Assembly: GCF_037201965.1 (NCBI RefSeq)
Contig: NZ_CP147518.1
Location: forward strand, 6,193,001-6,257,000
Reading direction: 5' to 3'
Length of the DNA: 64,000 nucleotides
Source of the DNA: Spirosoma sp. SC4-14
Lineage (GTDB): Bacteria > Bacteroidota > Bacteroidia > Cytophagales > Spirosomataceae
The notes under the pieces were generated by a model. The model made no database searches and was not told the DNA's origin. It worked only from the letters and a program-made list of their open reading frames with translations. The translations under genes were made by a program, and so were the position numbers. Positions 17,880 to 36,729 of the stretch are shown in pieces (the stretch's first letter is position 1; every line of letters begins with the position of its first letter).

Positions 17880-18896
17880 TCAGAGCGACTTTCGCACAAT
17901 AAGCTGAAACGGATTTTCGATGTGTTCAACGCTGGTATTCAGAATCAGTTGGGCTGCCGTCCGACCCATCTGGGCAAAATCGGTCGACATAACCGTAATG
18001 CCTTCCAGCAAAAACTCCTTCAAAGGCGTATCGTTATACGACAAAATACCAACTTCCTGCCCCAGCACGTAGGGAGTTTCCTTAATTTTCTTGATCAACT
18101 CTACCAGGTCTTCCTCCATCAGATTGATATAGGCCTGTTCGGGATAAATAACTTCCTGCTGAATGTTGTTGATAACCCGTGTATTAAAATCATGCTCGTA
18201 GCAGAACTTATAATACCCGTTCAGGATGGCCTTGGGATGATAGGTATAAGACGGAAAAAGAATGCTGAGGGTTTTGTATTTTCTCAGGAGTGGCAGCGCT
18301 TCGGTCAACGCCTGATACATGTCTTTTTCGAAGTTCTGAAACACCGCTGCATACTTCCCCGATACACCTTCCAGAAGCTTATCCAGAATGACCAGTTTAT
18401 GTTTAGGCAGGCTGTTGATTAACTCATTGGCTTTTTCACCCCCTTCATAAAAATGCCCAATAATCACATAATGCGTATGATTGCGAGCCTGCCGCTGGAT
18501 TAAATCACGAAATAGTCTGAAATCGTTGTTGTAGATAAAAAAGTCAATCGCTACACTCGGCCCCAGCAGTTCGACAAACGAATCATAGATGATTTTTTTG
18601 TGAGCACTAAGCTTATTGAACAATAAAAATATTTTAAGATTATGACCAGTCTTCGTGTAGTTGATGTAGTATCCTTTTCCCCGAACTGCTTCTATAATCT
18701 CCTTTTCTTTCAGGAGTTCGTAGGCCCGCTCAATGGTGCCTTTGGCAATATCGAATTCAGCGCATAGCTCATGAATCGACGGTAGCTTATCCCCTGGCAA
18801 TATATCCCGGTTTTCAATCCCCTCAATAATTGAATTGTAAATCTGTTGGTATTTGGGGGTATTCGAATAATCATTGATTTTAATATGCCGTAACAT
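17880..18896 (-). CDS. GntR-type transcriptional regulator with a sugar-binding-like domain
   Basis: A 338-residue regulator from the start MLRHIKINDYSNTPKYQQ; an upstream in-frame start at 18914 is also possible. Residues 1-75 are a GntR winged helix (GDKLPSIHELCAEFDIAKGTIERAYELLKEK). The remainder resembles a LacI/periplasmic-binding fold that would bind a sugar effector. This GntR-plus-LacI arrangement is common beside Bacteroidota sugar loci. It is divergent from susC across a 577-596 bp control region, so it most likely regulates the SusC/SusD pair and perhaps the downstream catabolic block. Operators were not identified with certainty, but direct repeats lie at 19330-19403. The effector is unknown. 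Confidence 0.85.
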   Translation of the reverse strand: MLRHIKINDYSNTPKYQQIYNSIIEGIENRDILPGDKLPSIHELCAEFDIAKGTIERAYELLKEKEIIEAVRGKGYYINYTKTGHNLKIFLLFNKLSAHKKIIYDSFVELLGPSVAIDFFIYNNDFRLFRDLIQRQARNHTHYVIIGHFYEGGEKANELINSLPKHKLVILDKLLEGVSGKYAAVFQNFEKDMYQALTEALPLLRKYKTLSILFPSYTYHPKAILNGYYKFCYEHDFNTRVINNIQQEVIYPEQAYINLMEEDLVELIKKIKETPYVLGQEVGILSYNDTPLKEFLLEGITVMSTDFAQMGRTAAQLILNTSVEHIENPFQLIVRKSL

Positions 18897-18914
18897 ACAA
18901 GTTCGTTTAGACAC

Positions 18915-19492
18915 AAATGCTTATCGAAAGCATAAACCAAGCTGAATCAATTTTTGCTTTACAGCTAAGACAAGGAGTAGTTTTAAGTCAGTTCGCGCTA
19001 TACTCTTTCTTCTATATAAAGTAGCAGCCAGCGAATCCTACTAACATTTTGCTCATTCGTTATTCGATTAAGCGGCTAATGTCTTTTCGGCCGTTGCTAA
19101 CTCACCAATTTCTCTGTTTATGCTACGTTGTTCTGCCCCGCAGCAATTATTCGACAATAAGGGCAAGGGGTTATCTATGTATACTGGAAAATAAATAAAA
19201 CATACTATCTCTTTAATTACACCTCAACTATATTCTTCCGGGAAACAGTAAAAAACGAGTCAAAGGCTTAATCGTGATACGTATAGCTTTTCCTCATTTT
19301 GGGTCGGAAAGAGCTATTTTATAGTAACCTTCTAAGCGTTCTAAGTAAAAAATTTCAAATAAGAAATTCAAATAATTATAAAAGTAGGAAAGTATAGGAA
19401 AGTCTGAGCAAGCACGATTGTAATATTTGGCCATTGTATTGAGCAAAGGAAAGTTGTCCTAATCCTGAGAATCCTATTCTTACATTATTATT
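18915..19492. promoter_or_regulatory. Long control region between the GntR regulator and susC
   Basis: A 578-bp AT-rich gap without a gene. It holds three sets of direct repeats: TTCTAAG at 19330 and 19339 (9-bp step), TTCAAATAA at 19354 and 19367 (13-bp step), and TAGGAAAGT at 19385 and 19395 (10-bp step) with a further AGGAAAGT at 19447. AATATTTG at 19422-19429 is one mismatch from a -7 box for susC. The repeats suggest regulator binding on one face of the helix. Confidence 0.5.
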
Positions 19493-22400
19493 ATGAAAAT
19501 ACTCTATCAGTTGGTCGTGCTAGGTATAGCAACGAGTAGTTACGCGAGCTATGCACAGGAACAAAAGGTAACGAGTCCAAACAGGACCGAGCGCTTCGGC
19601 AAGCAACTTTTTGCCATGAATACCGCTGTGCATCCTAAGCCAGAATTCTCTGCTACGGCAGACATAACCGTGTCTGGTAAAGTTACCGACGACAAAGGAG
19701 AAGGTCTGCCAGGGGTAAGTGTCGTTGTCAAAGGAACCACAAAAGGAACCACAACCAATGAAAATGGGAATTTCCAGTTAGCCGTACCCGATTCGAAAGC
19801 CGTTCTGGTATTTAGTTTTGTAGGCTATCAACGCAAAGAAGTTCCTGTTGGTGGCCAAACGACCGTAAATGTAACCCTGACAGCCGATGATCAGACACTG
19901 AACGAAGTAGTTGTAGTAGGGTATGGTAGCCAGCTCAAAAAAGAAGTTACGGGCGCTGTACAGACGGTTAGCTCACAAGAGATTAAAGACCTGCCTGTTT
20001 CGCAGATCGGTCAGAAACTACAGGGTCGTCTGGCAGGTGTTCAAATCAACCAAACTACCGGTAAACCGGGTCAGGGAATATCGATTCGTATCCGTGGCCA
20101 GGTTTCGGTATCGGCCGGTAGCGACCCGCTTTATGTAATCGATGGGTTCCCCATTACTGGGAATATTGCCCAGCTTAACCCCGACGAAATCGATGATATT
20201 TCGATTCTGAAAGATGCCGCATCGACCTCTCTGTATGGTTCTCGGGCTGCCAACGGGGTTGTGCTGATTACGACCAAAAAAGGAAAACCAGGTCAGACCA
20301 ATGTTAGCTTCACGGCTTACACGGGGCTCCAGAAAGTTCCTATGAGAGGACGGGTGAAAATGCTGGATGCCGTTCAGTTCGCGCAGTTCAAGAAAGAATA
20401 CTATGAAGACATGCTTCAGCCCGTACCGGACATCTTTCAGAACCCCTCGCAGTATGAAGGAAAAAATAATGACTGGTACGATGCCCTGCTCCGCGTAGCC
20501 CCGCTCCAGAGTTATAACCTGACGGTTTCGAACAACACCGAAAAGTCGAACACATCGCTGGTAGCGGGTATCTTCAATCAGGAAGGGGTTGTTATCAACA
20601 ACAAGTACAAACGCTATTCACTGCGGATGAACTCGAACTATAACCTGTCGAAACAAGTAACGGTAGGGTTCAATATTGCGCCATCGTATGTATTCGACAA
20701 CACCCCTCGTACGGATGGTGACCGGGGTACAGGTATTTTGTTCAATGCCCTGCATACCTGGCCAATCATGCCAATTTACGATGCCAATGGCGACCTGACC
20801 AAATACAATCAGCTCCCCGCCAGCACAGGCAACATTTTTGCCTATCCGAACTGGGTACGGGCAGCCAGCGAACTAACCAACGAAACCAAAAACACCAACC
20901 TGCTGGGTAATGCTTACGTTATGTTCCGGCCTATTCAGGGACTGACACTGAAGTCGACGATGAACATCGAGTATATGAACTCGAAGTTCTTCTTCTTCAA
21001 CCCATCAACGGCCACCAGTGCCATCAATGTTCCGATTCCAACAACGGCGGTATCGATCCGGCAAAGCATTGAAAACATATCGTGGCTGAACGAAAACCTG
21101 GCTACATATGCCCGGAGTTTTAACGATCATAACTTTGAGTTGTTAGCCGGTTTTACCAACCAGCAATTCCGTCAGGAGTCTACGCGGATTCAGGCCAATA
21201 CCTACGCCGACGACCGGCTTCCAACCATTCAGGGAGCATTGAATATAGATCGGAGCGGCACTAACACATCGAATGATATAAATCAGTGGGCCTTAACGTC
21301 TTACCTATCCCGGTTGACCTATAATTATAAAGGAAAATACCTGTTCACGGCGGCTGTTCGTGCGGATGGATCGTCGCGTTTCGGCTCCAACAATCGCTGG
21401 GGTACGTTCCCATCGGCTTCGTTAGGCTGGGTGGTGTCAGACGAAAATTTCATGAAAACGCTGCCGCAGGTTTCGTTTGCCAAACTACGTACCAGCTACG
21501 GGGTAATCGGGAACAACAACATTGGTAACTATACGCAGTATGCGCTGGTGAATAATACGACCAATGCTGTGTTTGGGAGCAATGTTGCAACGGGTGCTGT
21601 TGTAACGTCGCTGGCCAACCCAAATCTGGGCTGGGAAACCACCAAGCAGTTCGATATTGGTCTTGATCTGGGTTTGTTCAATGATCGGATTCAGTTCATT
21701 TATGATTTCTATACCAAGCGTACTACTAACCTGTTGTATGCGGTGCAGGTGCCACAGGAGTCAGGCTTTACGAACTTCAACGACAACATTGGTGAGATTA
21801 AATTCTGGGGACACGAGTTCTCGCTAACCACCAAAAACACCGTTGGTAAACTGAAGTGGACCACCAATGCCAACATCTCGTTCAACCGCAACATGGTAAT
21901 GTCGCTGGCACCGGGCATCGACCGCGTGTATGGTTCGTTCCACATTACGCAGGTAGGGCATCCATTTGGTCAGTTCTATGGCTTAGTAAAGCAGGGGTAC
22001 TATACGAGTGCTGAAGACCTTAGATCATCGCCCATCATTCCAGGTCGTTCGGCCATCGGAACTATTAAAATGAAAGATGTGAATGGCGATGGTGTGATTA
22101 CCTACGGGGGCGATTCTGACGACCGGACCATTATTGGCAGCCCCTTCCCAAAATTCACCTACGGGATCACCAACGACCTGAAATACGGCAACTTCGATTT
22201 CTCGATCACGGGTTCGGGTTCATACGGCAACCAATTGTGGGTTCGCCACCTCTATAGCACCGCCAACCTCGACGGCGTGTTCAACATGGTTGCGGGCGTA
22301 AAAGATCGGTTCCGGGTTCAGAATGCGCTTGTTGTTAACAATGGGGTTACATCCAGCGTAGCAACGAATGTGATTACGCCGGGAGCTGGCATGTTTGGCG

Positions 22401-22723
22401 CGACCAACAATGGTGGTAACTATACCGGTATCGAACGCGACTGGAACAGTACTCAGTTTCTGGCCGATGCCTCCTTCTTTACAATCAAAAACATAACGCT
22501 GGGCTATAACATCGGAGCTGTCAATAAACTCTTCAAATCGGCTCGGGTCTATCTTTCGGCGCAGCAGGTATACATTTTCACCAAATACTGGGGTGGACCA
22601 AACCCGGAAACCAGCGCCCAGAGTAATGGTAACGGCGACGGCGGTAACCTGAGCCAGGGCGTTGATTTTTCGAGCTATCCTGTTCCACGCACCTACACCG
22701 TTGGTGTTAACCTGAACTTCTAA
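19493..22723 (+). CDS. SusC/RagA-family TonB-dependent outer-membrane transporter (1)
   Basis: A 1076-residue SusC-type transporter. A signal peptide ends near residue 21, a carboxypeptidase-regulatory-like domain covers about 58-132, and the TonB-box-like LNEVVVVGYG lies at 136-145. A plug domain (about 150-260, with DPLYVIDGFP and LYGSRAANGVVLITTKKG) and a 22-strand barrel ending in aromatic NLNF follow. With the SusD lipoprotein it would form the lidded pore that brings oligosaccharides or other bulky ligands across the outer membrane, driven by TonB. It lacks the secretin/TonB N-terminal domain of FecA-like members, so it should not signal to an anti-sigma factor. Regulation is probably through the divergent GntR protein. 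Confidence 0.96.
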   Translation: MKILYQLVVLGIATSSYASYAQEQKVTSPNRTERFGKQLFAMNTAVHPKPEFSATADITVSGKVTDDKGEGLPGVSVVVKGTTKGTTTNENGNFQLAVPDSKAVLVFSFVGYQRKEVPVGGQTTVNVTLTADDQTLNEVVVVGYGSQLKKEVTGAVQTVSSQEIKDLPVSQIGQKLQGRLAGVQINQTTGKPGQGISIRIRGQVSVSAGSDPLYVIDGFPITGNIAQLNPDEIDDISILKDAASTSLYGSRAANGVVLITTKKGKPGQTNVSFTAYTGLQKVPMRGRVKMLDAVQFAQFKKEYYEDMLQPVPDIFQNPSQYEGKNNDWYDALLRVAPLQSYNLTVSNNTEKSNTSLVAGIFNQEGVVINNKYKRYSLRMNSNYNLSKQVTVGFNIAPSYVFDNTPRTDGDRGTGILFNALHTWPIMPIYDANGDLTKYNQLPASTGNIFAYPNWVRAASELTNETKNTNLLGNAYVMFRPIQGLTLKSTMNIEYMNSKFFFFNPSTATSAINVPIPTTAVSIRQSIENISWLNENLATYARSFNDHNFELLAGFTNQQFRQESTRIQANTYADDRLPTIQGALNIDRSGTNTSNDINQWALTSYLSRLTYNYKGKYLFTAAVRADGSSRFGSNNRWGTFPSASLGWVVSDENFMKTLPQVSFAKLRTSYGVIGNNNIGNYTQYALVNNTTNAVFGSNVATGAVVTSLANPNLGWETTKQFDIGLDLGLFNDRIQFIYDFYTKRTTNLLYAVQVPQESGFTNFNDNIGEIKFWGHEFSLTTKNTVGKLKWTTNANISFNRNMVMSLAPGIDRVYGSFHITQVGHPFGQFYGLVKQGYYTSAEDLRSSPIIPGRSAIGTIKMKDVNGDGVITYGGDSDDRTIIGSPFPKFTYGITNDLKYGNFDFSITGSGSYGNQLWVRHLYSTANLDGVFNMVAGVKDRFRVQNALVVNNGVTSSVATNVITPGAGMFGATNNGGNYTGIERDWNSTQFLADASFFTIKNITLGYNIGAVNKLFKSARVYLSAQQVYIFTKYWGGPNPETSAQSNGNGDGGNLSQGVDFSSYPVPRTYTVGVNLNF

Positions 22724-22774: not shown

Positions 22775-22792
22775 CCTAAAACCTTGTTTCTG

Positions 22793-24310
22793 ATGAAAAC
22801 AAAACATATAGCAGCCGGCTTATTGGCCATTGTACTAACTGGCTGTACAAAAGATTTCCTGACTGTAGTGCCCGAAACTGCATTAAGTTCGGCTACATTC
22901 TTCAAAACGCAGGCCGATTTCCAGCAGGCTGTCAATGGAGCCTATGTGCAGCTCCGGGCACTTTATAACGAACGGGAATGGGTATTGGAGGAAATGCACT
23001 CCGACAATACTTATTATGCCCGGAATACCCTGTATGGTGCGGTTGATGCCACGGAAAACGTAGCTGATTTCGCCGTTCCAACCGCCAATGGCGTTACGGC
23101 AAATGATAACGTGCTGAATGCCTACCGCTATAATTACGTAACGATCGCACGGGCTAATCAGATATTAGCCTCAATCGACGCGCCCGGCATAACGTTCACT
23201 AGCGATGCGGTGAAAAATAACCTGAAAGGGCAGGCCCAGTTTCTTAGAGCGCTTTCCTATTTCGATCTGGTTCGGTTGTTTGGTAAAGTTCCGCTGCATT
23301 TAACGCCTACCACAAGTCGCGAAGATGCCGCATTGCCACTCTCTTCTACCGAGGAAATCTATGCGCAGATTGAAAAGGATGCTACCGCTGCCAGCACTAA
23401 CCTGCTCAATAAAGCCACTCAGGAAGCGGGCCGGGCAACATCGGGAGCGGCCAAAACACTGCTGGCCAATTTATATATCACCCAGAAAAAATGGGCGCAG
23501 GCCGAAGCACTCATGAAAGATGTGGTCACAAATGACACCTACAAACTGATGCCCGATTATAACGACGCGTTCTCCTATACATCGACCAATAAGAACAATG
23601 CAGAGTCGGTATTTGAGATTCAGTATATGGAAGGGTCGGCCGGTTACAACGGTAACCAGATTTACCGGTTCCTGCCCTCGCCTATTACGGCGGCCGAGAT
23701 TGCGCCAATTACGGGAACCACTAACCCACAGCCCACCTCACAGGAAAGCAACAACATCCCAACACCGGATATTATTGCGGCCTATGAACCCGGCGACAAG
23801 CGGAAAGACATTTCCATTGGCTACGTTACGTTGAGCACCAGCTTACGGGAAAACAAGGTGTATCCGTATATTAAAAAATACGCCCGCACACACACGCTAC
23901 ATAACAACACAGGACAGAACTGGCCGGTTTATCGTTACGCCGAAGTACTGCTGTTTCTGGCCGAAGCGCTGAACGAACAGGGCAAAACGGGCGAAGCCGC
24001 TACGTATATCAATCAGGTGCGGGCGCGCGCTGGGTTGGCAGCCACAACGGCCACATCGCAGGCCGATATGCGCGAAGCCATCTTCAAAGAACGTCGGGTT
24101 GAACTGGCTTTCGAGAACAAACGCTGGTTCGACCTGACCCGAACGGGCCGGGTGAAGGAAATTATCGGTGCCTATGGGGCCCGTGTGAAGGCTAATCCTG
24201 CCGCCTACTATTTCCCGGCTGGCGCTGTTCCGCCACCAAACGCATTTACGGTTCTGGACGACTACTATGGTTTGCCAGCCGTAGAATCGGCATTAACACC
24301 CAACTTCTAA
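22793..24310 (+). CDS. SusD/RagB-family outer-membrane substrate-binding lipoprotein (1)
   Basis: A 505-residue lipoprotein. The start is taken at the ATG giving MKTKHIAAGLL, because it places the lipobox LTGC (C18) correctly; the in-frame TTG at 22784 is less likely. SusD landmarks are present: TKDFLTVVPETALSSATFF after the lipid anchor, TPR-like helices (GQAQFLRALSYFDLVRLFGKVPL), and the C-terminal RAGLAATTATSQADMREAIFKERRVELAFENKRWFDLTR region, which is the RagB/SusD family signature. It caps the SusC pore and binds glycan. It follows susC by 69 bp and is closed by a terminator, so susCD may form its own transcript. Confidence 0.95.
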   Translation: MKTKHIAAGLLAIVLTGCTKDFLTVVPETALSSATFFKTQADFQQAVNGAYVQLRALYNEREWVLEEMHSDNTYYARNTLYGAVDATENVADFAVPTANGVTANDNVLNAYRYNYVTIARANQILASIDAPGITFTSDAVKNNLKGQAQFLRALSYFDLVRLFGKVPLHLTPTTSREDAALPLSSTEEIYAQIEKDATAASTNLLNKATQEAGRATSGAAKTLLANLYITQKKWAQAEALMKDVVTNDTYKLMPDYNDAFSYTSTNKNNAESVFEIQYMEGSAGYNGNQIYRFLPSPITAAEIAPITGTTNPQPTSQESNNIPTPDIIAAYEPGDKRKDISIGYVTLSTSLRENKVYPYIKKYARTHTLHNNTGQNWPVYRYAEVLLFLAEALNEQGKTGEAATYINQVRARAGLAATTATSQADMREAIFKERRVELAFENKRWFDLTRTGRVKEIIGAYGARVKANPAAYYFPAGAVPPPNAFTVLDDYYGLPAVESALTPNF

Positions 24311-27571: not shown

Positions 27572-28363
27572 ATGCTAAGAAATATGCAGAGTAAATTCCT
27601 TCCGGTAGGGCTTATGCTGGCGATTGTACTAACCGCAGGCATTGGAACGGCTAGTCTGGGACAGAGTAAGAAAAGTAAAAAAGAAAAAGGGTACGTACAA
27701 ATCTTCGATGGCAAAACCCTCAAAGGCTGGGATGGCGATCCAACATACTGGAAAGTTGAAGACGGCTGCCTGACGGGTGAAATAACACCATCAACACTAC
27801 TCAAAACCAATAATTTCATTATCTGGCAAGGCGGTGAACCGGGCGATTTCGAGCTGAAAGGCGAGTTTAAAATTACAGAAACGGGTAACTCAGGCATCAA
27901 TTATCGGAGCGACCAACTGACCGATATACCCCATGCGCTGAGAGGGTATCAGGCCGACATCGACGGAAAAAATAACTACACAGGCCAGAACTACGAAGAA
28001 CGGAAACGGACAACCCTGGCCTACCGTGGTCAGAAAACGGTTATCGAACCCTATACCGGGGAAAATACACCAGAAGCCATACGGGCCAAAGTAAGCCGGA
28101 ATGCCTGGACGGGTATGAAAGTAGTAGGTTCGCTGGGTAGTTCCGATTCGTTGAAAACCCTCATCAAGCCCGGCGACTGGAATACGTTCCACCTCGTTAT
28201 CAAAGGCAATCATTTACAGCACTATATCAATGATGTACTGATGAGCGATGTGACGGACGACGATACCGTAAACGGAAAAGCAAAGGGTCTGCTTGGCGTA
28301 CAGGTACACGTTGGCCCGCCCATGAAAGTGCAATATCGGAATTTGATGTTAAAGCAAATGTAA
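27572..28363 (+). CDS. DUF1080 (3-keto-disaccharide hydrolase-type) exported protein
   Basis: A 263-residue protein with a signal peptide (hydrophobic to about residue 30; a later ATG at 27584 is also usable) and one LamG-like beta-sandwich domain of PF06439. The opening GYVQIFDGKTLKGWDGDPTYWKVEDGCLTGE is the family signature, and later DFELKGEFKI, GNSGINYRS and GDWNTFHLVIKGN strands follow. Pfam now calls this family 3-keto-disaccharide hydrolase, after enzymes that cleave glycosides whose sugar carries a 3-keto group, without a classical glycoside hydrolase mechanism. Its position right after a dehydrogenase and upstream of a Gfo/Idh oxidoreductase and a TIM-barrel isomerase supports such a pathway here. 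The exact substrate is inference. Confidence 0.85.
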   Translation: MLRNMQSKFLPVGLMLAIVLTAGIGTASLGQSKKSKKEKGYVQIFDGKTLKGWDGDPTYWKVEDGCLTGEITPSTLLKTNNFIIWQGGEPGDFELKGEFKITETGNSGINYRSDQLTDIPHALRGYQADIDGKNNYTGQNYEERKRTTLAYRGQKTVIEPYTGENTPEAIRAKVSRNAWTGMKVVGSLGSSDSLKTLIKPGDWNTFHLVIKGNHLQHYINDVLMSDVTDDDTVNGKAKGLLGVQVHVGPPMKVQYRNLMLKQM

Positions 28364-28365: not shown

Positions 28366-28467
28366 TTCGGTTTACGGTATTCAGTTTATGGTGGCTCCGC
28401 CTATCAGCATACATCCTACTAAAGCAGCGATACCGTAAACCGAAACCGTAAACCACAAACCGAATTC
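28366..28467. repeat. Family A intergenic inverted repeat, copy 3 (reversed)
   Basis: The left side holds TTCGGTTTACGGTATTCAG and the right side ATACCGTAAACCGAAACCG, so the arms are the family A words with some mismatches and an extra repeat unit on the right. The loop core GCATACATCCTACTAAAGC (28407-28425), read on the minus strand, matches the loop cores of copies 1 and 2, so this copy is inserted in the opposite orientation. It separates the DUF1080 and DUF4432 genes. Confidence 0.7.
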
Positions 28468-28471: not shown

Positions 28472-29533
28472 TTGACATTACCTCCCTGGCATAATAAAGT
28501 ATCGAATACCGCTCAGATCGGTGGCATCGAAACCTCTGTTCTGGACAATGGTTCCGGTCGGGGAACCCGCATTGCCTGGATCAACACAGGCACCGGACTC
28601 CGCTATAAAGTTGTTCTTGATCGGGCTATGGATATTGCCGACGCTTTTTATAATCAGCACAGCCTGGCCTGGCTGAGTCATGTTGGCATCACTCCTCCCG
28701 AGCCCTTTTCAGATCAGGGAATCGATTGGTTACGAACCTTTACGGGTGGTTTACTCACCACCTGCGGACTCACTCATGTAGGCGGTCCCGAGCAGGATGC
28801 CTATGGAAGCCGTGGCCTGCATGGGCACATCAGCCACACCCCCGCCGAAATTGAGTCCATTGTTCAGCCTGACCCAGCCAGGGGTTTGCTGGACATGAGT
28901 ATTACGGGGCGCATGAAAGAAACACGTGTATTTGGGCCAAGTCTGGAGTTAAGGCGTACCATTTCCGGAACACTCGGCCAGGCAACGATCCGAATCCACG
29001 ACGAAGTGATTAACCGGGCTAATACGCCTGCCCCGCATATGCTGCTCTATCATTTCAACTTCGGCTGGCCACTAGTCGACGAAGGCACCGATATACTCTG
29101 GCAGGGCAGTTGGCAAACCCGCGAAGGCGGACTGAATGGGGAGACGTTTCGGGAGGGTAACCACTTCCGCAAATGCCCAGCCCCGCAGGAAAGCCACAAC
29201 GGAACGGGCGAAGCCGTTGCCTTTATCGACATCCGGCCCGACGAATCGGGCTTATGTAGCACTGGCTTATACAATGACAATCTGAAATTGGCATTGGCAT
29301 TACGCTTTCCCAAAAATCAATTACCCTGGCTAACCAACTGGCAGCATTGGGGCAAAGGCGAGTATGTTACCGGTATCGAACCCGGAACGCATCCACCTAT
29401 CGGACAAGCCCAGGCTCGCGAACAGGGAAGCCTGTTGCGTATCGAACCAGGACAAAGCCGGACCTATGATCTCGAACTTGAAGTCCTGACCGACAGCACC
29501 CTCATTCATGAATTTGTAAGCAAGTACATATAA
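28472..29533 (+). CDS. DUF4432 aldose-1-epimerase-like protein
   Basis: A 353-residue cytosolic protein without a signal. It matches the DUF4432 family, a branch of the galactose-mutarotase beta-supersandwich: NGSGRGTRIAWINTGTGLRYKVVLDRAMDIAD, GGLLTTCGLTHVGGPE, YGSRGLHGHISHTPAEI and PHMLLYHFNFGWPLVDEG are the conserved blocks. The family has no firmly known reaction; the fold points to sugar epimerisation or lactone handling. The start is TTG at 28472, chosen because the conserved region begins about 12 residues later and no ATG lies between. It lies 20 bp before the cupin gene, so the two are tightly coupled. It probably acts on the sugar imported by the ABC system. Confidence 0.8.
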   Translation: MTLPPWHNKVSNTAQIGGIETSVLDNGSGRGTRIAWINTGTGLRYKVVLDRAMDIADAFYNQHSLAWLSHVGITPPEPFSDQGIDWLRTFTGGLLTTCGLTHVGGPEQDAYGSRGLHGHISHTPAEIESIVQPDPARGLLDMSITGRMKETRVFGPSLELRRTISGTLGQATIRIHDEVINRANTPAPHMLLYHFNFGWPLVDEGTDILWQGSWQTREGGLNGETFREGNHFRKCPAPQESHNGTGEAVAFIDIRPDESGLCSTGLYNDNLKLALALRFPKNQLPWLTNWQHWGKGEYVTGIEPGTHPPIGQAQAREQGSLLRIEPGQSRTYDLELEVLTDSTLIHEFVSKYI

Positions 29534-29553: not shown

Positions 29554-30789
29554 ATGGAAACAACCGAAAAAGTAAGCGTAGCAGCAAAAGCATTAGAGCA
29601 GGGGCAAGGAATTTTACGGCTTACGCCAACCTGGGTTCCCCGGTCATTTTGTGTACCCGGCCGCCGGATCAAACTTCACCCCGATGATTACTACGTACTG
29701 GGTGGCGAACGTGGCGGAATCGACGAGCGTTGGTTTTCATCGACAACTCCGGCAAAAAACGGGCCGCTAACGGGCGAAAATGAAGGGTTAAGCCATATTG
29801 TTTTTCAGGATGAAGATGGTCAGGAAGTTCAGTTTCTGCTAAAAGATGCAGTCGATGAACTAAAAGGCGAACTGATTGGCGACCGGTTATGGAACGAATA
29901 TGGTGCCTGGCCGATGTATTCCAAGTTTTTCGACAATATGGGGCCCCTACCCCACCACCTGCACCACAACGACGAACAGGCTGCGTTGATTGGTCAGTTG
30001 GGCAAACCCGAAGCCTATTATTTCCCGCCACAGGTCAATAACCATGGTGGCGATTTCCCCTATACGTTCTTCGGTATTGCTCCCGGCACCAGCAAAGAGC
30101 AAATTAAAGAATGCCTCAAAAACTTCACGAAAGGCGATAACAAAATCACAAATTACTCGTCGGCCTACCGGCTTGAGCCGGGCACCGGCTGGGACGTTCC
30201 GCCCGGACTTCTGCACGCGCCGGGTAGCATGTGTACCTACGAACCGCAGAAAGCATCGGACGTGTTTGCCATGTATCAATCGCTGGTGAACGAAGCCATT
30301 ATTCCAGAAGAATTGCTCTGGAATGGTACGCCCAAAGATCGCATCGGCGATTATGATCAGTTGATGGAAGCCATCGACTGGGACCTGAACGTCGATCCGC
30401 AAATGATGGCCAACCGGTTCATGCGTCCCAAACCCGTTCGGGACGAAGCAGAAATGAAAGCCGAAGGCTACAGCGAAGTATGGGTTTGCTACAAATCGGA
30501 GGCTTTTAGCGCCAAAGAGTTAACGGTATTCCCCGGCCAGACGGTTACCATCAAAGACAATGCTGCCTATGGACTGATCATGATGCAGGGACACGGCAAA
30601 ATGGGCGTTTGGGACATCGAAACACCAACCATGATCCGCTACGGTCAATTAACGAACGATGAGTTTTTCGTAAGTGAAAAAGCGGCTATGGAAGGCGTCA
30701 CGATTGTTAACCACTCGACCACCGACCCTATTGTCATGCTCAAACACTTCGGTCCAAACAACCCTGATCTGGATCTGACTAGTTTGTAA
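29554..30789 (+). CDS. Cupin, phosphomannose-isomerase-like protein
   Basis: A 411-residue soluble protein with two cupin-like halves. The first half holds PHHLHHNDEQA (133-143) followed by GKPEAYYF, which parallels the zinc-binding histidine and glutamate segment of type I phosphomannose isomerases. Further on, GWDVPPGLLHAPGS supplies another histidine of the same site. The second half (about 310-400) is a plain cupin barrel. I therefore infer a metal-dependent aldose-ketose isomerase or a related sugar-binding enzyme, but overall similarity to known isomerases is limited, so the substrate is not assigned. It sits 20 bp after the DUF4432 gene and before a family A repeat. No signal peptide is seen, so it acts in the cytosol. 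Confidence 0.65.
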   Translation: METTEKVSVAAKALEQGQGILRLTPTWVPRSFCVPGRRIKLHPDDYYVLGGERGGIDERWFSSTTPAKNGPLTGENEGLSHIVFQDEDGQEVQFLLKDAVDELKGELIGDRLWNEYGAWPMYSKFFDNMGPLPHHLHHNDEQAALIGQLGKPEAYYFPPQVNNHGGDFPYTFFGIAPGTSKEQIKECLKNFTKGDNKITNYSSAYRLEPGTGWDVPPGLLHAPGSMCTYEPQKASDVFAMYQSLVNEAIIPEELLWNGTPKDRIGDYDQLMEAIDWDLNVDPQMMANRFMRPKPVRDEAEMKAEGYSEVWVCYKSEAFSAKELTVFPGQTVTIKDNAAYGLIMMQGHGKMGVWDIETPTMIRYGQLTNDEFFVSEKAAMEGVTIVNHSTTDPIVMLKHFGPNNPDLDLTSL

Positions 30790-30790: not shown

Positions 30791-30875
30791 GTTTACGGTA
30801 TTCGGTTTACGGTTGCCCTGCTTTAGAAGGACATAGCCCAATAAGCAGCGCAACCATAAACCGAATACCGTAAAC
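30791..30875. repeat. Family A intergenic inverted repeat, copy 2
   Basis: The 26-bp arms at 30791-30816 and 30850-30875 are complementary with a single mismatch. The 33-nt loop has the same length as in copy 1, holds an inner CTGCTT/AAGCAG stem, and its core GCTTTAGAAGGACATAGC (30820-30837) matches the other copies. It lies between the cupin and TIM-barrel genes. It is the most intact copy in the window. Confidence 0.8.
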
Positions 30876-30902: not shown

Positions 30903-31937
30903 ATGAACGAAAATAATTATCCTAAGCTCCACAACGCAATGTGGCCTGGCGTTGTCGGAAAAGGCCCCGATTCTGAGCCTGTAATTGGTTTCGACACCAT
31001 GCTCGAACTAACGGCTGCTGCCGAAGTAGACGGTGTCAAATTTGATGGTGTCGATCTGGCCCTATTCGAACACCTCGACATCAATATGTCGGACGACGAT
31101 ATCAAAAGGCTGGCCGATAAAGTAAGCAGCTACGACCTCAAAATCGGCTCACTGGTTGCGCCAATCTGGGGTGGCCCCGCAATGGGCACCCGTGAGCAGC
31201 GTACGCAGTTTGTTGAAATGGTGCGCAAATCCTGCTCCATCGGTCAGAAACTAAAAGAAATCGGGATTCGGCCAAGTGGTGTTGTTCGAATCGACTCAGC
31301 CTCCTCTCCACACGATTGGGCCGTTGATCCGGTGGGCAACTCCAAACTAATTGTTCAGACTTTTCAGGAGGCCTGCGACGTTGCTGCCGACTATGGGGAA
31401 AAGCTGGCCGCTGAAGGCGAAATCTGCTGGGGAGGTATGCATAGCTGGAAAACAATGGTCGATACGCTGGTTGCCGTAGACCGGCCCAATATGGGTTTCC
31501 AGGCCGATATGGCACATACGCTGCTCTATCTGTTGGGCTACAATAGCCCGGAAGACCGGATTCTCCCCCCCGATTTTGACTGGAGCGATCGCAAAACGCT
31601 GAACGAAGCCCTGAAAGCCGTTACCAAAGCGCTTCGCCCCTGGACTATCGACTTCCATGTTGCGCAAAACGATGGAACCGTATTTGGATCAGGCTCACAC
31701 GACAAAACCGGTCGCCACTGTCAGGCACTAGACCCTAATGGAAAGCTCGACGTTGCTCATGATGCAGGCTACTGGCTGCGCGACGAAAACGGTCAGCTCA
31801 CCAAAGCCTTCCGACATATCTGCTGGGATGGCTGTATGTTCCCTAACGAAGTGATGACTCGCCCCCAAACCTGGAACGACATTCTGGCCACAATGATCAA
31901 AGTCCGCCAACTGCACGGCTGGTACGAAGCAGAATAA
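30903..31937 (+). CDS. TIM-barrel sugar isomerase/epimerase (xylose isomerase-like)
   Basis: A 344-residue cytosolic protein of the AP endonuclease 2/xylose-isomerase-like TIM-barrel family (as in IolE, IolI, hydroxypyruvate isomerase). Barrel strands end in [37 protein letters not shown] (acid candidates E171 and E173), [13 protein letters not shown] (D202, H205), [11 protein letters not shown] (D250, H252) and [13 protein letters not shown] (H305, D309), which would form the divalent metal site. Members isomerise or epimerise sugars, inosose or keto-sugars. Together with DUF1080 and the Gfo/Idh gene it recalls 3-keto-glycoside processing loci. The precise reaction is not known. A GC-rich stem-loop follows before the next gene. 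Confidence 0.85.
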
Positions 31938-31942
31938 AAAAA

Positions 31943-31966: not shown

Positions 31967-31980
31967 AATCTTTTAAAGAA

Positions 31981-33138
31981 ATGGCAAACAAAAAAGAAAT
32001 ACGAATTGGCTTAATTGGTACCGGTTTTATGGGCCGGACACATTCGAACGGGTATAACCGTGTACCCAACTTTTTTCCTGACTTAGCCTATACCCCCGTT
32101 TTAAAGGCCGTTTGCTCACGAAACCCCGATAAAGTAAAGGCCTTCGCTGAACAGTGGGGTTACGAATCGACCGAAACAGACTGGAAAGCCATAATTGCCC
32201 GCGACGATATCGATGCTGTCGATATTTGCACCCCAAACGATTCGCATGCCGAAATAGCGATTGCAGCCGCTAAAGCCGGGAAAATGATTCTTTGCGAAAA
32301 ACCGCTTGCACGCACAGTTGCCGAAGGCCAGCAAATGCTCGATGCAGTTACGGAAGCCGGTGTGAATACAACAGTCTGGTACAACTATCGTCGGCTTCCG
32401 GCCGTTACGTTGGCCAAACAAATCGTCGATTCAGGTAAACTAGGCAAGATTTTTCACTACCGGGCCAACTTCCTGCAAGACTGGACCATTAGTGCCGATG
32501 TGCCGCAGGGCGGGGCTGGCACCTGGCGTATGGATGTCGAAGCGGCTGGTTCGGGCGTAACGGGCGATTTGCTGGCGCACTGCATCGATACCGCTATGTG
32601 GATCAATGGCGGCATAACCGACGTGTCGGCCGTTACTGAAACCTTCGTGAAAGAACGCTTTCACCAACTAAAAGGTAAAGTTGAACCCGTTGGCATCGAC
32701 GATGCCTGTATCTTCCATTGCCATTTCGACAATGGTTCGCTGGGATTGTTTGAATCGACCCGCTATGCCCGTGGGCACAAAGCATTATACACCTTCGAAA
32801 TTAATGGCGAACACGCATCCATTCGCTGGGATTTGCATGACCTGAACCGGCTCGAATATTTCGATCACCGCGACGAAGGCATTGTTCGGGGCTGGCGGTC
32901 GATTCACGTCACCGATGGCGATCAGCCTTATATGGACAAATGGTGGGTTCCGGGTCTGGGTATCGGCTATGAGCACAGTTTCGTTCATCAGGTTGCCGAT
33001 TTCCTTAAAAGTCTGGAAACCGGCGAACCCTGTGGCCCTACTTTCAAAGACGCCCTGGAAACCCAGAAAGTTTGTGAAGCCGTTCTTGAATCGGCAGCCG
33101 CCAAAGCCTGGAAAGACACTGGCGTGCAGTGGAGCTAA
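31981..33138 (+). CDS. Gfo/Idh/MocA-family NAD(P)-dependent sugar oxidoreductase
   Basis: A 385-residue cytosolic enzyme. The N-terminal Rossmann fold has the GTGFMG dinucleotide motif (13-18) and the family hallmark [11 protein letters not shown] near residue 105, whose lysine is catalytic in relatives. The C-terminal alpha/beta substrate domain includes [17 protein letters not shown], where D and H supply the usual acid-base pair. Gfo/Idh/MocA enzymes oxidise or reduce hydroxyls on sugars, inositols or glycosides, often at C3. In this block it could reduce an imported 3-keto sugar or oxidise its substrate further. It comes directly before the ABC importer genes, after a long low-complexity stem-loop. 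Confidence 0.93.
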
Positions 33139-33143
33139 TTGTT

Positions 33144-33256
33144 AAAGAGCGAAAGAGTGAAAGAGCGAAAGAGTGAATTAGACGCAGATGCAGTCCGATT
33201 TCACTCTTTCATTCTTTCACTCTTTCATTCTTTCGCTCTTTCATTCATTTACTCGT
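33144..33256. repeat. Family B inverted repeat, copy 1 (tandem 8-mers)
   Basis: The left arm is four tandem 8-mers of the form AAAGAGYG (33144-33175). The right arm (from 33200) is about seven 8-mers of the form TTTCAYTC or TTTCGCTC, complementary to the left. The loop contains AGATGCAGT (33186-33194), also present in copy 3 at 49563-49571. It sits between the Gfo/Idh and ABC ATPase genes. The unequal number of units shows repeat expansion on one side. Confidence 0.8.
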
Positions 33257-33263
33257 TAATACA

Positions 33264-34754
33264 ATGCAGGATTACATTCTTCAGGTACGTGGTTTGACCA
33301 AAACCTTTGCGGGCGTAACGGCACTGAACAATGTGCAGCTATCGGTTCGGAAAGGCGAAGTCCATGCATTAATGGGTGAGAACGGGGCAGGCAAATCGAC
33401 GTTCATGAAGATTCTGATCGGTTTACTCAAACCTGATTCGGGAGAGATTCTGTTCGAAGGCCAGCCACTGCACGTCAAAGGGGTTAGTGAAGCCCTCCGC
33501 AAAGGCATTTCGATGATTCATCAGGAAATTCTGATGGTTCCGGAACTAACTGTTGCACAAAACATTTTTCTGGGCCGCGAGCTAACCCATCGGTTTCCGG
33601 GTTGGCTGAATGACCGGACAATTTGCCAGAAAGCTGAAGAAATTCTGGCCCTGATCGGTGTTCACATCGATGTTCGAACGCCGATGAAATACCTGAGTGT
33701 GGCCGAAATGCAGATGGTTGAAATTGCCAAAGCCATTTCGAACGACGCTCGGGTAATTATTATGGACGAGCCTACATCGGCCATCTCTGATAAAGAAGTA
33801 ACGACCCTATTTTCGATCATTAAAGACCTGACTCGCAAAGGCGTTGCCATTATTTATATCTCGCATAAAATGGATGAGATTTTCTCCATTGCCGATACCA
33901 TAACGGTTTTGCGGGACGGAAAATACATTGCTACCAATCCGGCATCGAGCATCAACACCAATCAGTTGATCGCCCTGATGGTAGGCCGACAAATCGACAA
34001 CCTCTTCCCAGACACCGATGCCCAGAAAGGCGACGAACTTTTGGCAGTTCGCCATCTTAGCCGTAGCGGGGCATTTACTGATATCAACTTTACGGTTCGG
34101 GCCGGCGAAGTGCTGGGGCTTGGGGGGCTGATGGGCGCTGGCCGTACCGAAGTAGCCCGCGCTATTTTTGGTCTGGACCCTATCGACAATGGTGAAATTT
34201 ACGTAAAAGGCAGGCCCATACGGATTAAATCACCACAGGATGCCATCGGGCATGGAATTGGCTACGTCAGCGAAGATCGTAAAGGACTGGGATTTATTCC
34301 GCAGCTATCGGTTAAAGAAAACATTACCCTGGCGAGTTTGACCAGCTATGCGAAAGGCCCTTTTATTCAGGATGGTCACGAAACCACCGCAGCCGTTCAG
34401 ATGGTTGAAACCCTGCAAATCAAAACAGCCGGTGTCGACCAGAAAATAGCTAACCTTAGCGGTGGTAATCAGCAGAAAGTAGTGATTGGCAAGGTACTGC
34501 TTTCATCACCGGATATTGTCATTCTCGACGAGCCTACCCGCGGCATCGACATTGGGGCCAAATTTGAAATCTATAAACTCATTCGCCAACTAACAGACAA
34601 CGGAATAGCTATTGTCCTGATTTCGTCGGAACTCCCGGAATTAGTAGGAATGAGCGATCGGGTGCTTGTTCTGTCGGAAGGCAAACAAACGGCTTTGCTA
34701 TCGAAAGAAGAAGCCAGTCAGGAAACCATTATGACCTATGCCATGCCGCAATAA
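33264..34754 (+). CDS. Sugar ABC importer ATP-binding protein (RbsA-like)
   Basis: A 496-residue ATPase with the tandem arrangement of the carbohydrate-uptake-2 (CUT2) family. Domain 1 has Walker A GENGAGKST (about 39-47), a signature LSVAEMQMVEIAKA and Walker B VIIMDEPTSAI. Domain 2 has a degenerate Walker A (GLMGAGRTEVARAIFG), an intact LSGGNQQKV signature and VILDEPTRGIDIGAK. It energises uptake of a monosaccharide, as RbsA does for ribose, XylG for xylose or IatA for inositol. It lies 18 bp before the permease gene, and the three ABC genes form a tight unit. The sugar class is not predicted from the ATPase. Confidence 0.95.
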   Translation: MQDYILQVRGLTKTFAGVTALNNVQLSVRKGEVHALMGENGAGKSTFMKILIGLLKPDSGEILFEGQPLHVKGVSEALRKGISMIHQEILMVPELTVAQNIFLGRELTHRFPGWLNDRTICQKAEEILALIGVHIDVRTPMKYLSVAEMQMVEIAKAISNDARVIIMDEPTSAISDKEVTTLFSIIKDLTRKGVAIIYISHKMDEIFSIADTITVLRDGKYIATNPASSINTNQLIALMVGRQIDNLFPDTDAQKGDELLAVRHLSRSGAFTDINFTVRAGEVLGLGGLMGAGRTEVARAIFGLDPIDNGEIYVKGRPIRIKSPQDAIGHGIGYVSEDRKGLGFIPQLSVKENITLASLTSYAKGPFIQDGHETTAAVQMVETLQIKTAGVDQKIANLSGGNQQKVVIGKVLLSSPDIVILDEPTRGIDIGAKFEIYKLIRQLTDNGIAIVLISSELPELVGMSDRVLVLSEGKQTALLSKEEASQETIMTYAMPQ

Positions 34755-34772
34755 CTTGTCTTAACAGCCTGC

Positions 34773-35759
34773 ATGAAAAACGTACTTACCAGCTATTTCA
34801 ATCAGAGCAAAGGTACCGTCCGGGTTCCGAAGCGGGGCATTGGCCAATATGGAATTTTTATTGCATTCATTGTCCTGTGCGTTCTATTAGCTATTGTAAC
34901 ACCAAAATTTCTGACCGTTTCGAATCTGACCAACATCGTAACGCAGGTATCTATCAATGCCCTGCTGGCGTTTGGCGTTACGTTTGTCATTATCACGGGC
35001 GGTATTGATCTATCCATTGGCTCAATGGTTGCCGTTACGGGTGTTGTTGCGGCCTTGTTTGCTCATCCCGATAGCTATCCGGTTATTGTACCGGTGCTGG
35101 CGGGTTTACTGGCAGGGCTGGCGCTGGGTGCTCTCAATGGATTTGTGATTACGCGAACTAAAGTACCTCCCTTCATTGTCACCCTCGGAACCATGACCAT
35201 CGGTCGGGGTCTGGCGCTAATCCTCAGCAAAGGCCGTCCTATTTCGAACCTGTCCGACTCATTCAATTTTATTGGTGGCGGCCAGGTTCTGGGTATTCCT
35301 TCTCCAATCATTATTCTCATTATTGCTTTTATAGGCTGCTCCGTTCTGTTGAAAAAGACCGTTATGGGACGATATATGTATGCTGTTGGTGGCAACGAAC
35401 AGGCTGCCGAAGCCTCGGGCATTCAACTGAACAAAGTAAAAATGATGGTTTATACGCTTTGCGGAGGGTTAGCTGCTCTGGCCGGTATTCTACTGACCTC
35501 CCGCATCACAACGGGGCAACCCAATGCAGGTATTGGTTTCGAACTCGACGCCATTGCTGCAGCCATCATCGGCGGCACCAGCACATCCGGTGGCACGGGC
35601 ACTATTACCGGCACACTCATCGGCGCTCTGTTGATTGGTGTAATTAGTAATGGCCTCGATCTGCTCAACGTAACGTCCTACTACCAGCAGGTTGTTATGG
35701 GCGTGATCATTATTGGTGCCGTGGTGCTTGACAGCCTGAGCCAAACAAACAAACGATAA
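34773..35759 (+). CDS. Sugar ABC importer permease (RbsC-like)
   Basis: A 328-residue membrane protein with about nine or ten helices, of the branched-chain/CUT2 permease family. Conserved features include the first long helix (YGIFIAFIVLCVLLAIVTPKF), GVTFVIITGGIDLSIGSMVA, and the late loop DAIAAAIIGGTSTSGGTGTI, which contacts the ATPase. It would form the homodimeric inner-membrane channel with the adjacent ATPase, fed by the lipoprotein encoded 22 bp downstream. Complete CUT2 importers are less common in Bacteroidota than SusC/SusD plus proton symporters, which makes this pairing notable. Confidence 0.95.
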   Translation: MKNVLTSYFNQSKGTVRVPKRGIGQYGIFIAFIVLCVLLAIVTPKFLTVSNLTNIVTQVSINALLAFGVTFVIITGGIDLSIGSMVAVTGVVAALFAHPDSYPVIVPVLAGLLAGLALGALNGFVITRTKVPPFIVTLGTMTIGRGLALILSKGRPISNLSDSFNFIGGGQVLGIPSPIIILIIAFIGCSVLLKKTVMGRYMYAVGGNEQAAEASGIQLNKVKMMVYTLCGGLAALAGILLTSRITTGQPNAGIGFELDAIAAAIIGGTSTSGGTGTITGTLIGALLIGVISNGLDLLNVTSYYQQVVMGVIIIGAVVLDSLSQTNKR

Positions 35760-35781
35760 CTAACCCACTCATTTTCTATAA

Positions 35782-36729
35782 ATGATACGCATACCATCAA
35801 CTATAGTATGTAATGTTCTAGGACTTACCTTATTACTCGCCGGATGCGGCCAATCTGGCAAAAGCGATCAAAACGGACAAGACAAGCCGCTTGTTATTGG
35901 CGCTACGATGCTCAGTATGCAGAATGAATTCATTGTCAACGTCAACGACGAGATGGCCAAAAAGGCTGAAGAAAGTGGTGTTGAATTTATTTCTGTCGAT
36001 GCCGAACGGTCGGCGCTGAAGCAAATTGAGCAGGTCGAAAGCTTTATTGCCCAGAAAGTCGATGCCATCATCATGAACCCCTGCGAAGTCGAAGCCAGTT
36101 CTCCGGCTGTAACGAAGGCCCTGGCGGCTCATATTCCAATCATCAATGTTAATTCGGCCACCAGCGCCAAACCAACCGCGTTTGTCGGCTCCGACGATGT
36201 CGAATCGGGTCGTATTGCCATGAACTATATTGCGAAACGGCTCAATGGCAAAGGCAATGTTGTTATGATGCACGGCTATATGGGTCAGGCAGCGCAGATC
36301 CAGCGCGAACAGGGTGCCCGCGAAGTATTGAAACAATTTCCGGGATTGAAGCTGATTGCTCACCAAACTGGCGAATGGGATCGGGCCAAATCGATGGCAT
36401 TGATGGAAAACTGGATTCAGTCGTACGGTTCCGACATCAATGCGGTTTTCGCGCAGAATGATGAAATGGGTATGGGAGCCGTAAAAGCGCTAACCAGTGC
36501 AGGATTAAAAAACAAGGTAATTGTGGTTAGTATTGATGCCATTCCTGATGCCCTACAGGCCGTAAAAAACGGCACGCTGGATGCAACTATTTTCCAAAAT
36601 GCCGAACAACAGGGAGCCAAAGCGATAGAAACGGCAATTAAAATTATTAAAGGACAGCCATACGATAAAGAAACGCTCGTTCCATTTGAGCTGGTTACTA
36701 AAGAAAACGTTGGGCAATACATTAAATGA
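35782..36729 (+). CDS. Sugar ABC importer substrate-binding lipoprotein (RbsB-like)
   Basis: A 315-residue type I periplasmic-binding protein. The signal ends in a lipobox (LLAGCGQ, C22), so unlike E. coli RbsB it is lipid-anchored. The two Rossmann-like lobes are seen from VIGATMLSMQNEFIVNVNDEM through VDAIIMNPCEVEASSPAVT, VGSDDVESGRIAMNYIA, NAVFAQNDEMGMGAVKAL and VIVVSIDAIPDALQAVKNGTLDATI. The N-R-D pattern expected for binding a pyranose or furanose is partly visible (E47-F48, N222-D223, D243). Binding of a monosaccharide or inositol is inferred. It closes the catabolic block; terminators follow from 36873. Confidence 0.93.
   Translation: MIRIPSTIVCNVLGLTLLLAGCGQSGKSDQNGQDKPLVIGATMLSMQNEFIVNVNDEMAKKAEESGVEFISVDAERSALKQIEQVESFIAQKVDAIIMNPCEVEASSPAVTKALAAHIPIINVNSATSAKPTAFVGSDDVESGRIAMNYIAKRLNGKGNVVMMHGYMGQAAQIQREQGAREVLKQFPGLKLIAHQTGEWDRAKSMALMENWIQSYGSDINAVFAQNDEMGMGAVKALTSAGLKNKVIVVSIDAIPDALQAVKNGTLDATIFQNAEQQGAKAIETAIKIIKGQPYDKETLVPFELVTKENVGQYIK

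Follow-up and report, generated by a model that had tools for sequence, protein, structure and literature searches.

The splitting of glycosides by oxidation is a recently recognized alternative to hydrolysis, and Bacteroidota of the gut reportedly use oxidation at C3 in place of hydrolysis in 3-keto glycan breakdown, in work said to have appeared in Nature in 2024. In this study, we analyzed a locus of Spirosoma sp. SC4-14 that would share this feature. The locus consists of 12 genes at positions 17880 to 36729 of a 64,000-nucleotide window, by which we mean the whole stretch analyzed (contig NZ_CP147518.1, positions 6,193,001 to 6,257,000 of the forward strand; positions below are those of the window), in a genome of 8.1 Mb in 2 contigs. 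We found that five of these genes, which encode a DUF4432 protein, a "cupin" with the fold of phosphomannose isomerase (PMI), a xylose isomerase-like TIM barrel, a Gfo/Idh/MocA oxidoreductase, and a DUF1080 protein, are a real conserved unit. The presence of this five-gene core in several environmental groups of Bacteroidota, with DUF4432 and an isomerase-fold family that has no Pfam or NCBIfam model, offers concrete enzymes for assay.

Several described systems invite comparison. In the levoglucosan pathway, LgdA, LgdB1, LgdB2, and LgdC convert levoglucosan to glucose by oxidation, elimination, hydration, and reduction (PMC7676230). As far as the available parts of PMC7676230 and PMC10066097 describe it in Bacillus smithii and Paenarthrobacter, it resembles our locus in that a Gfo/Idh oxidoreductase, a xylose isomerase-like TIM barrel, and a sugar ATP-binding cassette (ABC) importer adjoin one another, with no glycoside hydrolase. 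LgdB1-type β-eliminase genes adjoin lgdA in 253 of 265 cases in a survey whose available text limits it to >60% identity (PMC10066097); since the Gfo/Idh clade described here is only 38 to 40% identical to such enzymes, it should not have been part of that survey. The four-step logic of the levoglucosan pathway also underlies an operon of Agrobacterium that encodes the β-eliminase AtOGE and a probable hydratase and relies on TIM-barrel enzymes together with a Gfo oxidoreductase (PMC10628242). There, however, the first oxidation is made by GlycDH and not by a propeller-cytochrome c protein, and the available part of that paper names no DUF1080, DUF4432, or PMI-fold gene. In Bacteroides and Caulobacter, the PF06439 (DUF1080) proteins BT2157 and CCNA_01705 belong to pathways with a 3-dehydrogenase; CCNA_01705 is proposed to be periplasmic and is paired with the periplasmic 3-dehydrogenase LacABC, according to the available part of PMC9007349. 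In contrast, the genes of the window include no LacABC-type domain and no BT2159- or BT2158-type dehydrogenase, the window proteins reaching 37.6 bits against a cutoff of 650 and 34.7 against 750 in the BT_2159- and BT_2158-type models. Neither the PMI-fold protein nor DUF4432 has a counterpart in the available parts of these three precedents (PMC7676230, PMC10628242, and PMC9007349). The initial annotation, made from the sequence alone, could match the gene set to no described pathway; nor did we find a description of it, or anything on DUF4432 in such a set, by title or opening of the abstract in a literature search that did not cover preprints and most subscription papers. The gene set is a variant of a known oxidize-and-split strategy, and the chemistry itself is known.

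The conservation of the unit was examined in relatives collected with the cupin as bait. From at least 588 relatives, we took the 80 closest, which together with 8 from another scan gave 88 close loci. Of these, we used the 58 with at least 9 kb of flank on both sides and dropped 30 for short flanks. The flanks compared end 9 to 10 kb from the cupin gene, and a gene was counted as present at ≥40% identity unless stated. Eight distant cupin loci (L047 to L054) and a genome with its cupin on a 3.7-kb contig (G200; L018/L148) stand outside these counts. The TIM barrel and the Gfo/Idh gene were each present in 57 of the 58 loci, DUF4432 in 56, DUF1080 in 54 (55 at any identity), and the gene for a propeller-like protein with a cytochrome c domain in 42 (43 at any identity). 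The full five-gene core was found in 53 loci, or 54 at any identity. The genes for DUF4432, cupin, TIM barrel, and Gfo/Idh were all present in 56 loci and strictly consecutive in 43, open reading frames below 150 amino acids being ignored. Holders of the core span Cytophagales, Chitinophagales, Flavobacteriia, and Sphingobacteriia. The exceptions are L055, without DUF4432, and L086, which keeps only the cupin and the propeller; L044, L068, L078, and L086 have no DUF1080 of the required identity. L055 is Spirosoma panaciterrae, whose enzyme core is otherwise intact.

The enzyme genes also co-vary in a survey of 296 Bacteroidota genomes, which served as an unbaited test. A cupin relative of ≥53% identity was found in 10 of these genomes, one of 35 to 40% in 8, and a weak match of ManA-like length in 16; the latter 24 genomes, all below 41% identity, were scored as lacking the cupin. 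The TIM barrel occurs in 11 genomes, as does DUF4432 (10 at E < 1e-50), with a weak DUF4432 match in G097 (E 7e-4) scored as lacking. Cupin and TIM barrel occur together in 9 genomes, and cupin, TIM barrel, and DUF4432 together likewise in 9; G200 has the cupin without the TIM barrel, and G134 and G211 have the TIM barrel without the cupin. Fisher's test gave P values of ~1e-14 for cupin and TIM barrel and ~1e-18 for cupin and DUF4432, uncorrected for relatedness. Holders of the cupin and the TIM barrel are spread over several families, and strong DUF4432 matches occur only in cupin-holding genomes of this sample.

These results bear on the simplest alternative, in which an ordinary polysaccharide utilization locus lies by chance beside unrelated sugar genes. 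For the enzyme core, we rejected this on the gene order kept in 43 of 58 loci across the four groups and on the genome-wide co-occurrence, and as an account of the whole locus it is hardly credible. It survives only for the transporters and possibly the regulator. Transport is clearly exchangeable: within the compared flanks, SusC and the ABC importer are both present in 13 loci, SusC alone in 13, the ABC importer alone in 10, and neither in 22. SusC and SusD were each found in at least 26 loci, the ABC ATPase and permease each in at least 23, and the binding protein in at least 21 (27 for SusC and 25 for the ATPase at any identity), counts that are lower bounds because the flanks end 9 to 10 kb from the cupin. 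We therefore rejected SusC/SusD and the ABC importer as defining parts; both are present in the window, as the initial annotation had it, but they are not constant parts of the locus.

The cupin (29554 to 30789; 411 amino acids) matches nothing in Pfam or NCBIfam, and its family is undescribed in these libraries. Its AlphaFold model (mean predicted local distance difference test score [pLDDT] of 89, predicted template modeling score of 0.90) supports the earlier description as PMI-like, as ranks 1 to 17 of a PDB fold search were all mannose-6-phosphate isomerases (E 1e-18 to 8e-14), and the protein also matched four ManA proteins in a profile-profile comparison (probability 96%). Residues H135, H137, E153, and H221, invariant in 36 aligned rows (the window protein and 35 of 95 relatives), fall on the metal-ligand positions of ManA, which we take to be Q/H, H, E, and H. 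We also assume that the ManA motif has an arginine after the last histidine; an R274A mutant entry is among the fold matches. By eye, the cupin has no arginine there, which suggests, and no more than suggests, a substrate without phosphate. The cupin thus shares its fold and metal-ligand positions with class I mannose-6-phosphate isomerase but differs from it in this apparent replacement, in its 411-residue chain unmatched in either library, and in having no sugar kinase nearby. The four ManA proteins, which are weak cupin matches of the survey, score 146 to 154 against the TIGR00218 cutoff of 116; the cupin has no NCBIfam match. From its modeled fold, we consider the protein a candidate sugar isomerase. 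Among the closest 80 relatives, seven Spirosoma records hold cupins of 91 to 94% identity and two metagenome-assembled genomes named Spirosoma fluviale hold one of 83%. A plasmid search with the cupin returned 3 records, one full-length at 33% identity, and no closer annotated cluster. This full-length homologue lies on an Arthrobacter plasmid (L135, 11953 to 13158) among genes for an Rbs-type importer, a dihydroxyacetone kinase family protein, ribose-5-phosphate isomerase, triose-phosphate isomerase, and a DeoR regulator, an arrangement like that of a sugar alcohol cluster. A distant cupin clade of 35 to 40% identity has a recurrent neighborhood of its own (L048 to L051, L053, and L054), which in L048 includes GH10, GH13, GH2, epimerase, aldo/keto reductase, FGGY kinase, and nucleoside hydrolase genes.

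The other enzymes of the core belong to recognizable families. The TIM barrel (30903 to 31937; 344 amino acids; AP_endonuc_2, 42 bits) is a candidate hydratase or epimerase. Its model has a pLDDT of 83, with residues 257 to 279 poorly modeled. In fold, it comes closest to xylose isomerases and to proteins that resemble D-tagatose/psicose 3-epimerase, and the 3-keto-D-glucoside 4-epimerase YcjR follows at rank 12; with so many near-equal matches, the fold names no reaction. It was aligned with 36 of 77 relatives, and a plasmid search with it gave no match. The DUF4432 protein (28472 to 29533) scores well above the PF14486 cutoff (335.7 against 32.5 bits) and matches PDB 3ty1, a hypothetical aldose 1-epimerase, over nearly its full length, which makes it a candidate sugar epimerase. 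The DUF1080 protein (27572 to 28363) exceeds the gathering score of PF06439 (128.3 against 26.8 bits), and its matches to solved members of the family are weak and partial; by family, it is a candidate for cleaving 3-keto-glycosides in the periplasm as a hydrolase or lyase. Signal-like N termini were seen by eye in the DUF1080 protein, where the N terminus is hydrophobic, and in the propeller protein; none was seen in the DUF4432 protein, the cupin, the TIM barrel, or the Gfo/Idh protein (31981 to 33138; Pfam/NCBIfam). This distribution suggests that oxidation and splitting occur outside and remodeling inside.

The first oxidation is assigned less readily. The propeller-like protein (24819 to 27494), by eye secreted, is a candidate periplasmic oxidoreductase. 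It carries a cytochrome c domain (TIGR02603) with a CxxCH motif at residues 755 to 759 that is kept in ≥97% of 58 rows; its propeller part matches TIGR02604 below the cutoff (80.5 against 122.2 bits) and DUF7133 at E 0.007. The cytochrome c part of the earlier label, a cytochrome c-linked propeller dehydrogenase, is thus borne out, and the propeller part stays below threshold. The genome also holds 7 Gluconate_2-dh3 genes, possible parts of a LacABC-type oxidase, so another enzyme may make the 3-keto-glycoside. With these and the many PF06439 genes considered below, the genome is rich in genes of 3-keto-sugar type.

We favor, with a little less than even confidence, a model in which the locus is a Bacteroidota module that breaks a glycoside by oxidation, with oxidation at C3 and splitting outside the cell and import, hydration, isomerization, and reduction of the keto sugar thereafter. 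A glycoside would enter through SusC/SusD or another porin and be oxidized at C3 in the periplasm; the oxidoreductase for this step would most likely be either the heme-c propeller or an enzyme of LacABC type encoded elsewhere in the genome. The secreted DUF1080 protein would, judging by its family, split the 3-keto-glycoside, and import of the freed keto sugar or 2-hydroxy-3-keto-glycal would follow, a task that would fall here to the Rbs-type ABC importer. Once in the cytosol, the sugar may be hydrated, epimerized, or isomerized by the TIM barrel, the DUF4432 epimerase, and the PMI-fold isomerase; the Gfo/Idh protein would then reduce the keto group with NADH, and the sugar would join central metabolism. 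By precedent, the last reduction would be the work of the Gfo/Idh protein and the hydration that of the TIM barrel. If true, such bacteria would have a further route for glycoside use without a glycoside hydrolase in the locus.

Several observations weigh against this model. No enzyme here is close to a characterized one, and the TIM barrel has no BLAST match to the TIM barrels of levoglucosan-type clusters (E 1e-3; proteins of 271 to 274 amino acids in three such clusters, taken as LgdB1 by position and size). An isomerase is superfluous if the product is simply glucose. DUF1080 is not specific, as the genome holds 23 PF06439 matches, 21 of them over the cutoff, and four relatives lack it at 40% identity. 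The only Gfo/Idh protein of the locus is cytosolic, so the first oxidation falls to an enzyme not proven for it. The propeller has no PF07995 match, and its pairwise profile match to a GSDH quinoprotein is weak (E 0.0036, probability 9%, RN motif aligned); its gene is absent within the compared flanks in 16 of 58 loci. A PqqC search gave no match, although the controls of that search were silent as well.

A wider set of genes recurs near the core in relatives. Clustering revealed two further TIM-barrel families, TIM2 in 21 of 58 loci and TIM3 in 19, an α/β hydrolase in exactly the 19 loci with TIM3, ThuA in 17, a GDSL-DUF7133 fusion in 13, FG-GAP in 12, GH130 in 8, and a glucuronoyl esterase-like gene in 4. 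Ten representatives of the recurrent neighbor families absent from the window were scanned, several rarer families being left out, and no kinase, aldolase, or uronate isomerase domain was found among the ten. The TIM2 representative is nearest to D-psicose 3-epimerase (141 bits) and 5-keto-L-gluconate epimerase (140 bits), both with cutoffs of 300; the TIM3 representative has a weak inosose dehydratase match, the hydrolase representative is PcaD-like, and both ThuA representatives scanned are over the cutoff. The GDSL companion protein has a GDSL-DUF7133-HEAT-cytochrome c architecture. In Fibrella (L063), propeller, DUF1080, DUF4432, cupin, TIM barrel, Gfo/Idh, ThuA, GDSL-DUF7133, TIM2, TIM3, and hydrolase stand in one row. 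In our genome, ThuA (81%), GDSL-DUF7133 (85%), and TIM2 (78%) lie together at a second locus at ~0.98 Mb of the same contig (G000:C1, ~980058 to 985114; L145, 5559 to 10615), adjoining a large hybrid histidine kinase, and TIM3 has no close match in the genome (best 24% identity). In G211, GDSL-DUF7133, ThuA, TIM barrel, TIM2, TIM3, and hydrolase are present, the cupin and DUF4432 are missing, and the stretch examined gave no Gfo/Idh match. G134 combines TIM barrel, Gfo/Idh, TIM2, ThuA, and GDSL-DUF7133 but lacks DUF4432, and its sole cupin match is weak and ManA-like. These partial sets and the split in our genome suggest two modules that are usually paired, with exceptions.

This wider set bears on the idea of the initial annotation that a glycoside is oxidized, split, and then imported. 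The families present (PF06439, an Lgd-like Gfo/Idh protein, a xylose isomerase-like TIM barrel, a heme-c protein, and, in relatives and at the second locus, ThuA) fit oxidize-and-split chemistry. The initial picture needs correction in that the wider set is divided over two loci in our genome. A bolder version of our model, which we regard as rather doubtful, makes the system a branch of its own in redox glycan breakdown and ties the second locus in: instead of a plain reduction to glucose, the freed keto sugar would pass through a nonphosphorylated rare sugar, for example of allose/allulose type, the Gfo/Idh protein would reduce it, the PMI-fold enzyme would convert aldose to ketose, and TIM-barrel 3-epimerases of the window and the second locus would return a common ketose, with the propeller-cytochrome c protein as a new glycoside 3-oxidase tied to respiration. 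The companions also raise the idea that the substrate is a sugar acid or contains ester linkages, for instance a plant fragment decorated with glucuronate, from which esterases first remove groups. The GDSL fusion, the glucuronoyl esterase-like gene (as judged from representatives), and the PcaD-like hydrolase in the TIM3 loci would suit such a substrate. All three are absent from the window, however, although the second locus has the GDSL fusion; with no close TIM3 match in the genome and with the ten neighbors scanned lacking a uronate isomerase or aldolase, we consider this very unlikely.

The Gfo/Idh protein also invites comparison with the levoglucosan pathway. Its best NCBIfam match is levoglucosan dehydrogenase (NF052479) at 339.9 bits, against a cutoff of 650 that genes of two levoglucosan-type plasmid clusters, used as controls, exceed (749.4 and 746.8 bits); its identity to the enzymes of three such clusters, including these two, is 38 to 40%. 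In the PDB, it matches the uncharacterized 4h3v at 338 bits, 6a3f at 279, and scyllo-inositol/L-glucose dehydrogenase at 158. K107 (the lysine of an EKP motif), D196, and H200 are kept in ≥97% of 72 rows and fit, by motif and spacing and without alignment, the K-D-H triad given in the available part of PMC5969746. We also built a tree from 25 rows, made up of the gene of the window, 9 genes from plasmids for comparison, and 15 genes drawn from as many loci. In it, the Gfo/Idh proteins of the cluster group together with support of 100/98, and the levoglucosan-type proteins form a clade of their own (96/100), with long-branch warnings. By sequence, the protein thus belongs to a separate clade beside levoglucosan dehydrogenase. 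Given the subthreshold score with two positive controls, the separate clade, and the missing counterparts of LgdB1 and LgdC, we rejected the label of a levoglucosan pathway. The cluster genes include no second Gfo/Idh gene of LgdC type, the search having been confined to them, and DUF4432, the PMI-fold protein, DUF1080, the heme-c propeller, and SusC/SusD are extras relative to that pathway.

A cytosolic route with the same logic is a serious if unlikely possibility. In it, the ABC importer would bring in an intact small glycoside or anhydro-sugar, the Gfo/Idh protein would oxidize C3 with NAD, the TIM barrel would eliminate or hydrate, and the same or another Gfo/Idh protein would reduce, with DUF1080 and the propeller serving a parallel step. 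Such a route would suit the kinship of the Gfo/Idh protein to levoglucosan dehydrogenase and to 6a3f, the ABC ATPase and permease genes that levoglucosan-type clusters also contain, and the weak similarity (27 to 32%) of two TIM3 representatives to LgdB1-sized TIM barrels. Yet the window has no LgdB1- or LgdC-type gene, the best match of an LgdB1-sized TIM barrel in our genome is 30% identical, and the ABC ATPase is absent within the compared flanks in 35 of 58 loci.

We regard it as unlikely that the substrate is a free rare sugar or cyclitol instead of a glycoside. In such a pathway, the Gfo/Idh dehydrogenase, a TIM-barrel dehydratase or epimerase, and the PMI-fold isomerase would process a monosaccharide or inositol that is imported after DUF1080 and the propeller have prepared it outside. 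The importer is of Rbs type, the Gfo/Idh protein is also related to scyllo-inositol/L-glucose dehydrogenase, similarities below the cutoffs link the TIM2 and TIM3 representatives to ketose 3-epimerases, 5-keto-L-gluconate epimerase, and inosose dehydratase, and the Arthrobacter homologue of the cupin stands by a kinase/RpiB/TpiA/DeoR cluster. Conversely, the nearly constant DUF1080 gene (54 of 58 loci) speaks for a substrate with a glycosidic bond, and the ten neighbors scanned have no kinase or aldolase domain. The myo-inositol route through IolG and IolE was rejected, the Gfo/Idh protein scoring 125 bits against a cutoff of 355 and the TIM barrel of the window having no NCBIfam match.

Around the core, 11 of the 12 genes lie on the forward strand and a divergent regulator gene on the reverse strand; all 12 gene positions given earlier agree with the list of open reading frames. 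The earlier labels likewise agree with Pfam and NCBIfam searches, the propeller being backed weakly and the cupin by the PDB fold search. The regulator (17880 to 18914) is of the GntR family with a periplasmic-binding-like part (Pfam/NCBIfam; Peripla_BP_3 at 25.4 bits, below the cutoff of 26.5). Its distance from the cupin, ~10.6 kb on the upstream side, places it outside most of the compared flanks, and it was found in 2 of 58 loci. In the Spirosoma-type loci L055 and L149, its identity is 86%. When three loci were extended, it stood beside SusC in the same-genus G249 (86%) and was absent in G076 and G194. A SusC-type TonB-dependent outer membrane transporter (19493 to 22723; Pfam TonB plug and CarbopepD) and a SusD-type lipoprotein (22784 to 24310; Pfam SusD) follow the regulator, and the Rbs-type sugar ABC importer ends the row with its ATPase (33264 to 34754), permease (34773 to 35759), and sugar-binding protein (35782 to 36729; all Pfam/NCBIfam). 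The SusC/SusD pair of a polysaccharide utilization locus is thus present without its glycoside hydrolase or lyase: in line with the initial annotation, Pfam (E 0.001) found no glycoside hydrolase, lyase, sulfatase, or sugar kinase domain across the 12 genes. GH109 and similar glycoside hydrolase classes include some Gfo/Idh proteins. Among the relatives, eight Dyadobacter loci (L101, L104, L106, L111, L114, L115, L122, and L127), the 8 of 58 counted above, carry a GH130-type gene ~7.5 kb upstream of the cupin gene, called from one representative (L114). An IS200-like Y1 transposase gene (PF01797; scanned in L092, 13765 to 14217) lies between the Gfo/Idh and ABC genes in L092, L104, L106, and L113, and the same gene family occurs near the cluster in L067 and L115.

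Downstream of the last gene, a terminator-like hairpin of 8 pairs (7 GC) with a T run matches the consensus at 36873 to 36892 on the forward strand, and a second consensus match lies at 36991 to 37019. The scan gave 29 hits in total against a shuffle mean of 22.3 (standard deviation 5.2), a slight excess, so the terminator evidence is weak. The flanking genes include a GSDH gene at 12407 to 13612 and a gluconolactonase-like gene at 38182 to 39105; the latter was rejected as part of the cluster, being found in 0 of 58 relatives. A phytochrome histidine kinase gene and then a response regulator gene follow downstream of the operon (39395 to 42066). Within the row, the gap between the Gfo/Idh and ABC ATPase genes (33141 to 33260) contains short direct repeats with an 8-base period that make a long inverted repeat (GAAAGAGT/ACTCTTTC type). 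An imperfect, REP-like palindrome with 33-nucleotide arms, 94% complementary, lies between the cupin and TIM-barrel genes (30791 to 30875), with related copies in the gap between the DUF1080 and DUF4432 genes (28370 to 28453) and far upstream (7603 to 7679); it has 67 matches genome-wide, many sites being counted on both strands.

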